64,000 nucleotides of DNA, from positions 124,001 through 188,000 of the forward strand of contig NZ_LGEN01000001.1 of NCBI RefSeq assembly GCF_001507855.1. Reading direction: 5' to 3'. The DNA comes from Halomonas sp. 54_146. GTDB lineage: Bacteria; Pseudomonadota; Gammaproteobacteria; Pseudomonadales; Halomonadaceae. Position 1 is the stretch's first letter, and each line of letters opens with the position of its first letter. Position numbers and translations under genes: made by a program. A model generated the notes under the pieces. It saw nothing but the letters and a program-made list of their open reading frames with translations, had not been told where the DNA came from and searched no databases. Shown here one piece after another: positions 45,069-48,267 of this stretch.

Positions 45069-45108
45069 AATCAACAGACTTTACCACGCTCAGGAGTCGG
45101 TCTACAGC

Positions 45109-45471
45109 ATGTCACCCACGCTTGAAGTTCAATCTGCTTTGCCGCGGCGTCAACGCCGTTATGGTATAGCGCGTTGGTGGCTGGCCGGCTTATTAGTAAG
45201 CTGCCTTTTGCCCGCAAGTTTAAGCCCTGCCGATGCCATTCGTAGCGGTGAGTACCGCGTCACTATCTGCTTTTGGGTGCCCGCCATTTTACGCGCTCAA
45301 TCGCACTGGGTCGCCAAAAGGCACCGTGCTTTGCGTCGTTGGTTCCAGCATCCTAAACGCTTTACGCCTGCTCGACACGTGTTTAATTGGCTGCCCCCAA
45401 CGGCCATGCTGGTTGCGGCTCACGATGTTTTGACCCAACGCGGTCCACCTTCCCATCGAGTCAGTTATTAA
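45109..45471 (+). CDS. putative SecM-like secretory arrest peptide upstream of secA
   Basis: 120-residue ORF directly before secA. Basic residues at 13-17 (RRQRR) and a hydrophobic stretch at about 20-39 ending SPADA (residues 39-43) look like a cleavable Sec signal peptide. The middle is basic and Trp/His-rich (for example HRALRRWFQHPKRF). Residues 110-114 are QRGPP, six residues from the C-terminus. E. coli SecM, also encoded just ahead of secA, has a signal peptide and stalls at a C-terminal RAGP; other export-monitoring arrest peptides use RAPP-type motifs. I see no other similarity to SecM. AGGAG (45092-45096) lies 12 bases from the ATG. The stop is 63 bp from the secA ATG. Function is inferred from position and architecture; it could be an unrelated small exported protein. 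Confidence 0.6.
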   Translation: MSPTLEVQSALPRRQRRYGIARWWLAGLLVSCLLPASLSPADAIRSGEYRVTICFWVPAILRAQSHWVAKRHRALRRWFQHPKRFTPARHVFNWLPPTAMLVAAHDVLTQRGPPSHRVSY

Positions 45472-45511
45472 TACACTCACTTTCTCGAAATAGGGCGTGT
45501 CCCGATGGGTC
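45432..45511 (+). promoter_or_regulatory. possible alternative RNA helices linking the leader ORF to the secA leader
   Basis: CGATGGG at 45503-45509 is a perfect complement of CCCATCG at 45452-45458, just after the Arg-Gly-Pro-Pro codons (45439-45450). The overlapping TGGGTC (45506-45511) complements GACCCA at 45432-45437, just before them. The two helices are mutually exclusive, and a ribosome held at the Pro codons would cover both upstream strands. The likely secA ribosome-binding site (GGAT, 45526-45529) is not itself inside either helix. Confidence 0.35.
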
Positions 45512-45534
45512 GCTCGTGAACACTTGGATATTCC

Positions 45535-48267
45535 ATGCTTAATAATTTATTACGTAAAGTCGTTGGGTCTAAAAATGACCGTGAAGTAAAGCGCATGCAC
45601 AAAAGTGTGCCGCATATCAATTCGCTGGAAGCAGAGTTTGAAGCACTTAGCGACGCCGAACTGCAGGGCAAAACGGCGGAGCTTCGCCAGCGTTTAGACG
45701 CTGGCGAGTCCTTAGACAGCCTATTAACCCCTGCCTTTGCCATCGTTCGTGAAGCCAGTAAACGCGTGATGAACATGCGCCACTTTGATGTGCAGATGGT
45801 CGGCGGTATGACCCTGCACCGTGGCCGTATTGCTGAAATGAAAACCGGTGAAGGTAAAACCCTGGTGGCCACGCTGGCGGTTTACCTTAATGCGTTGACC
45901 AGTAAAGGCGTGCATGTTGTCACGGTGAATGACTACCTGGCACGCCGTGATGCTGAGTGGATGCGTCCCCTTTATGAATTTTTGGGCCTGACCATTGGCG
46001 TTATCTTCTCGGGTCAAACCGGTGAAGAGAAACGCCATGCTTATCAGTGTGATATCACCTACGGCACCAATAACGAATTCGGCTTTGATTATCTGCGCGA
46101 TAACATGGCGTTCTCGTTAGAAGATAAAGTTCAGCGTGGCCTGCATTTTGCGATTGTCGATGAAGTTGACTCGATTCTAATTGATGAAGCGCGCACCCCG
46201 CTGATAATTTCCGGTGCGGTAGACGAAAACACCGACCTCTATAAAATCGTTAATCAACTTGCCCAGCAGCTTGAGAAAGGCGAAGAGAGTGAAGACGAAG
46301 ACGCCCCGGTTGACGGTGACTTTTTAGTCGACGAAAAGCAGAAGCAGGTCGAGCTGACCGAGCAAGGGCACAATAAAGTTGAAGAGTTGATGCGCGCTGA
46401 AGGCTTGTTGGGCAATGAGGAGTCGCTCTACGCCGCGCAAAACCTCAATTTGCTCCAGCATGTGCATTCGGCACTGCGTGCCCGTTATCTATATAACCGC
46501 GATGTCGACTACATCGTCTCTGAAGGCCAGGTGGTCATCGTTGACGAGCATACCGGCCGTTCCATGCCAGGGCGGCGCTGGTCGGAAGGTTTGCACCAAG
46601 CCGTTGAAGCCAAAGAGGGCGTCACGGTGCAGCGTGAAAGCCAAACCCTCGCCTCGACCACCTTCCAGAACTATTTCCGCCTGTATGAAAAATTAGCCGG
46701 CATGACCGGTACGGCAGATACTGAAGCGTTTGAATTTCGTCAAATTTACGGCCTCGACGTGGTGGTAATTCCCACCAACCGCCCGCTGGCGCGCAAAGAC
46801 CTTAACGACTTGGTCTACTTAAGCGCTGAAGAGAAATACGAGGCGATCATTAAGGATGTCAAAACCGAGACCGAAGCCGGGCGTCCTGTGCTTGTTGGTA
46901 CCGCCTCGATTGAAACATCGGAGTATCTTGCCAACCTGATGCGGGAGGCGGGCCTTGCCTTTAACGTACTGAACGCTAAACAGCACCAGAGTGAAGCTGA
47001 GATTATTGCCCAGGCGGGGCGTCCAGGGGCGATTACCATTGCCACCAATATGGCCGGTCGCGGTACTGATATTATGCTGGGCGGCAACTGGGAAGCCGAA
47101 GCTGCCAAGCTACAAGACCCAAGCCAGAGGCAGATAGAAGCGCTGAAAGCTGAGTGGCAGGCGCGTCATGACGCCGTGTTGGCCGCTGGCGGCCTGCATG
47201 TGGTGGGGTCTGAGCGCCACGAATCACGGCGTATCGACAACCAGCTGCGTGGTCGTGCAGGGCGTCAAGGCGACCCAGGCTCAACGCGTTTCTTCTTATC
47301 GCTAGAAGATAGCCTGATGCGCCTATTCGGTTCAGATCGCGTCAAACGTTTGATGCAGGCGTTAGGTCTTGAGCGTGGCGAGGCTATTGAGCATAAGATG
47401 GTCTCCAACGCCGTTGAGCGTGCTCAGAAAAAAGTTGAGGGGCGCAACTTCGACATTCGTAAGCAGTTGCTTGAGTACGATGATGTCGCTAATGATCAGC
47501 GGCGGGTAATTTACGAGCAGCGTAACGAAATTCTTGCTGCTGATGATGTCGCTGATGCCGTTATCGGTATTCGTGAAGAGGTGATGGAAGCGGCGATTAG
47601 CGACTACGTGCCCCCCCAGAGCCTGCCCGAACAGTGGGACTTGCCAGGCCTGGAAGCGCACCTGAAAACGGAGTTCAACCTTGATGTGCCGGTGGTTAAA
47701 TGGGCCGCTGAGGATGACCGTTTCAGCGAAGAGCAGCTACGCGAACGGCTGCAAACCATGCATCGTGAGGCCTATGCGGCCAAAATTGAGGCCGCGGGTG
47801 AAAAGCTGATTCGCCGCTTTGAAAAGCAGGTCATGCTGCAAGTGCTAGATACGCGCTGGAAAGAGCACCTTCAGTCGATGGATCACCTGCGCCGCGGCAT
47901 TCACCTGCGTGGTTATGCTCAGAAAAACCCCAAGCAAGAGTACAAGCGTGAATCGTTTGAGCTTTTCCAGCACCTGCTTGACCATATCAAAGCGGATGTC
48001 ACGCGCATACTCAGCCACGTGCAGGTACGCCAGCCCGAGGAAGTAGACGCCCTTGAGCAGCAGCGCCGCGACGCGCTCGCGCGGGAAACCGCCACGGCCA
48101 GCAGTCGACACGATGCCCCGGCTCAGGAGCAAGCCAATACCGACCAAGCAACCCCTGGTGTTGACGGGCGCCCGGTACGTCGCGAAGGCCCGAAGGTTGG
48201 CCGCAACGACCCCTGTTTTTGTGGTTCGGGTAAAAAATATAAGCAATGCTGCGGAAAATTAAGCTAA
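45535..48267 (+). CDS. secA: preprotein translocase ATPase SecA
   Basis: Motor of the Sec pathway that drives unfolded proteins through SecYEG. NBD1 Walker [22 protein letters not shown]-like [20 protein letters not shown]2 [14 protein letters not shown], and the C-terminal zinc motif [13 protein letters not shown] for SecB and phospholipid binding. 910 residues (E. coli 901), complete. The ribosome-binding site is weak, consistent with control by the upstream ORF. AGGAGA and argJ follow. Confidence 0.98.

Follow-up and report, generated by a model that had tools for sequence, protein, structure and literature searches.

A probable RGPP arrest peptide encoded directly upstream of secA in Halomonas and its relatives

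We report that a 120-codon open reading frame directly upstream of secA in Halomonas sp. 54_146, here called the uORF, very likely encodes a RAPP/RGPP-class monitoring substrate that depends on Sec and would control secA. It was studied within a window of 64,000 nucleotides, to which all positions refer. The existence of the gene, its conservation and pattern of selection, and its position ahead of secA were observed directly. Very probably it is a real, conserved RGPP arrest peptide, of a kind already in print and in a group that the literature very probably covers; the more interesting points are an invariant signal peptide core with a cysteine, and a swap with a peptidase gene.

The uORF runs on the forward strand from an ATG at 45109 to a TAA ending at 45471, with a Shine-Dalgarno-like AGGAG (45092-45096) 12 nt 5′ of the ATG; the start site agrees with the orthologue alignment. 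Its signal peptide, basic and then hydrophobic by inspection and hydropathy, occupies residues 13-43 (RRQRRYGIARWWLAGLLVSCLLPASLSPADA; 45145-45237) and is followed by a conserved stretch (residues 44-78; 45238-45342), a variable linker (residues 79-100; 45343-45408), a segment taken to be the arrest segment (residues 101-114, LVAAHDVLTQRGPP; 45409-45450) and a variable tail (residues 115-120; 45451-45468). The arrest segment ends in QRGPP (residues 110-114), its RGPP codons lying at 45439-45450, and six residues separate it from the stop codon. The initial annotation had placed the ORF at 45109-45471 just 5′ of secA, the signal at about residues 13-43, QRGPP at residues 110-114 and the Pro113 and Pro114 codons at 45445-45450, and all of these coordinates were confirmed. 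A 63-nt spacer (45472-45534, with a weak Shine-Dalgarno-like TTGGA at 45524-45528) leads to secA, the presumed target, on the same strand (45535-48267; PF07517, SecA_DEAD, E = 4.4e-133). On the 5′ side the neighbour is a divergent dciA (Pfam DciA, E = 3e-7), beyond which lie lpxC and ftsZ, both named by inspection; the E. coli order is ftsZ-lpxC-secM-secA. Among the window's stop-to-stop frames of at least 100 codons, the uORF copy is the sole R[AG]PP. No Pfam or NCBIfam family claims the protein. Searches with the uORF family gave a best value of 0.074 in NCBIfam and 0.33 in the PDB and none in PHROGs; faint Pfam hits, to DUF4328 in 8 of 30 members (best 8e-4), to Utp12 in 2 of 30 and to further families, seem to reflect nothing more than the composition of a basic protein.

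Orthologues came from a search of 58 relatives, and 30 were aligned, with the window ORF as row 1. They are 49-86% identical to the window's, and R111, G112, P113 and P114 are invariant. A profile of those 30 matches 256 of the 275 genomes of the family, in 19 of its 24 genera. The 19 misses include two incomplete genomes (80% and 66%) without a secA match and one genome, G646, which has a uORF ending SRRGPPKSLLA before secA; the remaining 16 have a different gene in the slot. Records with a name number 80, and every one bears the label Halomonas, Vreelandella or Halovibrio. Halomonads belong to GTDB Pseudomonadales. Searched across the order, the profile matched 25 of 390 genomes, 18 of them from the family; the other seven were weak partial matches (E 0.0015-0.008, 24-44 residues) at loci without secA, and were discarded. 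Outside the family, an RGPP or RAPP uORF precedes secA in none of 69 loci of the order.

The secA-adjacent loci, 152 in number and many of them repeat entries for a gene already in the set, reduce to 104 distinct uORFs. All but one of the 104 have R[AG]PP near the end. The exception, L064 (AP019416.1, labelled Halomonas olivaria TYRC17), looks frameshifted, with the RGPP lost through a sequencing error or in a broken copy. Leaving L064 outside the count, the 103 together with the G646 copy (L163) and 24 further divergent loci form the set of 128 distinct unbroken copies that were read, covering part of the 256 profile matches, and the motif counts rest on this set. The motif is kept in every one of the 128, as RGPP in 120 and RAPP in eight, and is therefore not a chance occurrence; conservation of the C-terminal RGPP in relatives, which had been proposed as a test of the arrest reading, thus holds as RGPP or RAPP. 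Tails after the motif are 1-13 residues long. The RAPP carriers are L262, L264, L265, L272, L276 and L277 (all six genomes read from genus g146), L260 and L091. In the 152 + 24 + 1 loci read, the uORF always lies before secA, with a spacer of 15 to 210 nt.

Selection was compared along the protein in 60 distinct sequences of the group closest to the window, taken by locus number and filtered for RGPP and a Met start; within that range the RGPP requirement removed just one sequence, the frameshifted L064. The values are uncorrected proportions near saturation, so that their contrasts alone are meaningful: pN/pS is 0.17 for residues 13-43, 0.29 for 44-78, 0.81 for 79-100, 0.20 for 101-114 and 0.91 for 115-120, and a repeat made alongside the LptA control described below gave 0.27, 0.77, 0.16 and 0.96 for the last four. 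At the RGPP codons pN is 0, partly by construction given the row filter, and pS is 0.56. Over the uORF pS reaches 0.67, as against 0.69 in the first 120 codons of secA, so the constraint acts mainly at the amino-acid level. A conserved signal and RGPP around a varying middle had been expected. The signal, residues 101-114 and the freely drifting residues 79-100 fit that expectation and residues 44-78, which are also conserved, do not; the middle of the protein is not uniformly variable. On these sequence features, the uORF is built like a monitoring substrate of the SecM type.

Fujiwara et al. 2024 (PMC10987492) described uORFs of the RQH family. In the text of that paper, uA_RQH_Pseudomonadales lies upstream of secA, carries R109GPP and stalls both E. 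coli and B. subtilis ribosomes (fAP > 0.9); for RQH members the toeprints map to the third residue of the motif, and most members also arrest in E. coli cells. The features that mark RQH members recur here: a secA uORF encoding a small protein without annotated function, an N-terminal secretion signal or transmembrane segment (by inspection and hydropathy), a conserved C-terminal RAPP-like motif (128 of 128) and a signal-to-arrest spacer of more than 30 residues (about 70, counted from residue 43). With uA_RQH_Pseudomonadales in particular the window's uORF shares its place before secA, an N-terminal localization signal, a C-terminal RGPP, the order (GTDB Pseudomonadales) and a similar motif position, the arginine being residue 111 here and 109 there. 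The published group was, as the paper puts it, assembled by motif and order, overall similarity lacking, whereas the halomonad uORFs are one homology family. Because this is the sole family of the order that we found with an RGPP uORF before secA, it very probably belongs to the published uA_RQH_Pseudomonadales. A search of the open-access literature found no paper on Halomonas as the bearer of an RGPP secA monitor.

By analogy with the toeprints of RQH members (PMC10987492), the ribosome is predicted to stall when the P site holds Pro113 (45445-45447) and the A site Pro114 (45448-45450). The structural mechanism is known for ApdA and ApdP, where cryo-EM, as reported in PMC10951233, shows a hydrogen bond tying the A-site proline to the second motif residue's carbonyl, which explains the stall. 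These two and ApcA resemble the uORF in their RAPP-class arrest core, but they lie upstream of secDF or yidC, occur in other phyla or classes, and use RAPP or RAPG more than RGPP. VemP of Vibrio is likewise a Sec-monitoring substrate in which regions after the signal matter too (PpiD contact, Arg-85; per PMC7793623), with a different arrest sequence and a different target (secD2/F2).

A possible objection is that the uORF encodes an ordinary small exported protein whose RGPP serves some function outside the ribosome. Most RAPP-like sequences in E. coli and B. subtilis proteins are described as non-stalling (PMC10987492), and the motif by itself is therefore no proof; moreover, the conservation of much of the signal and of residues 44-78 exceeds what an arrest peptide needs. 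We nevertheless regard this explanation as most improbable. In all 128 copies just 1-13 residues follow the motif, and this tail drifts freely; secA is downstream in all the loci read; RGPP is described as arresting more strongly than the related motifs across contexts and as being avoided more than any other tetrapeptide in many phyla (EMBO J 2025, PMC12992588); and a member of the published group stalls (PMC10987492).

The preferred reading, a monitoring substrate, raises the question of its relation to SecM. The initial annotation called the uORF a SecM analogue with an RGPP stall site, a description favoured by the SecM-like anatomy, the selection pattern and the stalling of the R109GPP group member. 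Both peptides precede secA and have an atypical signal peptide and an arginine-containing arrest motif near the C-terminus (RAGP in SecM, RGPP in the uORF), with a presumed stall at its third residue; the uORF lacks the motif FxxxxWIxxxxGIRAGP given for SecM in PMC10987492. Could the uORF and E. coli SecM then be true orthologues, far diverged, with gene position and signal retained in the uORF while RAGP became RGPP? It lies between lpxC and secA as secM does (here with dciA intervening), and a pairwise BLASTP of the window ORF with E. coli SecM gives E = 9e-4. Against a background of 719 ORFs, read in six frames from six E. coli stretches of 50 kb each, SecM was the best match for six of the 128 queries, the window's included (E 0.61), and in the top ten for 22. 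Against orthology, SecM ranked only 41st of 618 and 87th of 599 scored ORFs with two profiles; the SecM family PF06558, which does match in E. coli, matches in none of 274 genomes of the class, the window's included, and in none of the 30 members of the uORF family; and the 30-sequence profile gives SecM a probability of 0.4%. Sister genera with a peptidase in the slot speak for separate gain. We therefore consider orthology very unlikely and read the resemblance as one between similar signal peptides. The uORF would work like SecM, while homology is unsupported by these sequence tests, in keeping with the initial annotation's 'probably not homologous to E. coli SecM'.

The peptidase belongs to a gene exchange at the slot before secA. 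On inspection, the gene in that slot in the 69 loci of the order outside the family is of peptidase type in 47 (43 of which pass an end-pattern filter), a cut-down peptidase in two and lpxC in nine, the remaining 11 being not assignable or out of reach. The 16 family genomes lacking the arrest peptide (L160-L162, L164-L176) have a peptidase of the same type in the slot; the single slot gene scanned, that of G602, is a Pfam Peptidase_M23 (E = 3.7e-35). With the N-terminal 130 residues of a slot peptidase as the query, a search of 22 genomes found the peptidase in all four that lack the arrest peptide and gave no match in 17 of the 18 that have it; the eighteenth, G137, gave a marginal match on another contig (E = 6e-4) with one internal stop, which we took as noise. 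On that reading the two genes exclude each other in 22 of 22 genomes. The arrest peptide appears to have taken over the slot as the peptidase was lost, and because the arrest peptides are homologous we infer that this happened once. In its main text, PMC10987492 does not mention peptidase, M23, lipobox or lipoprotein.

A further question, raised by the shared slot, is whether the arrest peptide is itself a decayed M23 peptidase. The uORF of L163 (G646, genus g157) holds LARLDALSVRLTQVA, identical at 11 of 15 positions to the coiled coil of the M23 peptidase found in the slot elsewhere (E = 0.034 in a 57-protein set). In profile-profile comparison P was 0.18 for the complete sets and 0.028 when 18 divergent members were used; one of 128 sequences exceeded 3 bits, against 0.04 expected by shuffles, and it was the one noticed beforehand. 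Descent from the peptidase is thus unsupported by sequence and not accepted here, and it stays a lead.

The signal peptide has a near-invariant core, WLAGLLV[S/G]CLLP, with Cys32 invariant, and across the 128 copies the consensus is W-L-A-G-L-L-[VIFL]-[SGT]-C-L-L-P, with the Cys and the Pro three residues on present in all. Over residues 20-38 pN/pS is 0.07, compared with 0.38 in the signal h-region of LptA, an exported protein encoded in the window and the one control protein used, for the same 19 genomes common to both sets; the uORF signal core is about five times tighter. The lipobox consensus is [LVI][ASTVI][GAS]C, and the corresponding positions in the 128 copies are Cys in 128, Leu at -3 in 128, V/I at -2 in 118 and S/G at -1 in 126; Arg stands at -10 in 116, and the stricter PROSITE lipoprotein rule excludes Arg there. 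A signal peptidase I site is as plausible as a lipoprotein signal. From the Cys to the presumed P-site residue there are 77-84 residues (median 81, 128 copies), and from the signal end (residue 43) to the P site about 70, compared with a median of 71 in the short SecM class. The ribosome tunnel spans 30-40 residues; during arrest the Cys and residues 44-73 would be outside it, so that their constraint would not come from tunnel contacts. The arrest-peptide model does not account for the constraint on either the signal core or residues 44-78. We tentatively suggest, as an idea more likely wrong than right, that the uORF replaced the secA-adjacent M23 peptidase gene and that it reads more than generic Sec pulling: a sequence-specific input would be made up of the signal core with its invariant Cys, the conserved residues just after the core and the constant spacing of 77-84 residues from Cys to stall. 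The input could be, for example, processing as a lipoprotein, or a partner in the membrane or periplasm devoted to the task; a defined maturation step, rather than force alone, would then set the duration of the secA up-switch.

As for the regulation itself, we infer the stalling of the window copy, its release by export and its effect on secA as follows. The signal peptide would bring the nascent chain to the Sec translocon. Once Pro113 and Pro114 occupied the P and A sites, respectively, the peptide bond would fail to form and the ribosome would stall six codons before the stop. A functional SecA/SecYEG would pull the chain and so free the ribosome; a shortage of export capacity would prolong the arrest, and the stalled ribosome would raise expression of secA, 63 nt 3′ of the uORF stop. 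By analogy with the known systems, control of secA by the uORF stall is likely, and the stall would tune secA translation to export capacity.

How the stall would reach secA is less clear from the RNA. Folding of the window's uORF-secA region is no better than shuffles (z +0.34), so that a stem-loop at the secA Shine-Dalgarno sequence like that of SecM is unsupported there, and the signs of one in relatives are weak; Rfam has no match in the region, and a promoter scan gave one site, about the number given by shuffles. Comparing folds with and without a parked ribosome in 103 loci, mean accessibility at the secA Shine-Dalgarno sequence and start moves from 0.50 to 0.53, and that of the stretch before it from 0.31 to 0.40, an effect that masking any stretch has. 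Arm swaps between the arrest codons and the secA leader gave z = -4.3, against -3.5, -3.3 and -2.4 in controls, and within two groups -3.7 against -1.8 to -2.5; a locus's own arms beat the shuffled-arm mean in 60 of 100 loci and the 5th percentile in seven of 100, close to chance. A SecM-type hairpin switch is thus unsupported by shuffles, both in the window's fold and in arm pairing over 100 loci.

Alternatively, the link between the stalled arrest peptide and secA would be transcription polarity, or the stability of an mRNA shielded by the ribosome, with no hairpin at the secA Shine-Dalgarno sequence involved. The window has no hairpin better than shuffles, and the spacer varies from 15 to 210 nt. 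For 21 close relatives, the window included, RNAalifold gives a hairpin, CGTGAA/TTCATG, in which the secA start codon is closed and the loop contains TTGGA; a ribosome stalled at RGPP would not reach it. In the window itself (45514-45537, alignment columns 155-177) TTCCATG breaks that hairpin. We think this route unlikely, if worth keeping in view: SecM, MifM and VemP are described as regulating the next gene through mRNA structure (PMC10987492), and in most of 24 Halomonas-clade loci a stem joins the codons that follow RGPP to the sequence just ahead of the secA Shine-Dalgarno site (86% paired; 87% of cells in the helix). A ribosome stalled at RGPP would cover part of those codons. Both-side changes occur in four pairs of this stem against 2.5 by shuffle, and in eight cells against 4.2; the covariation term of the RNAalifold consensus for the 24 loci is near zero, and the covariation is unconvincing. 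The stem is 11 bp long (CTGCGTGGGCA/TGCCACACGCAG, one bulge) and is missing in the L090/L094/L101 subclade.

Taken as a monitoring substrate that controls secA, the uORF offers a family-wide case of an RGPP secA monitor in Halomonas, Vreelandella and their relatives. It is a homology family whose presence is paired with the absence of the M23 peptidase, which makes the monitor's origin and the need for its specific signal core testable. Halomonads are grown for bioproduction, and there a natural SecA sensor could serve as a reporter of export load.
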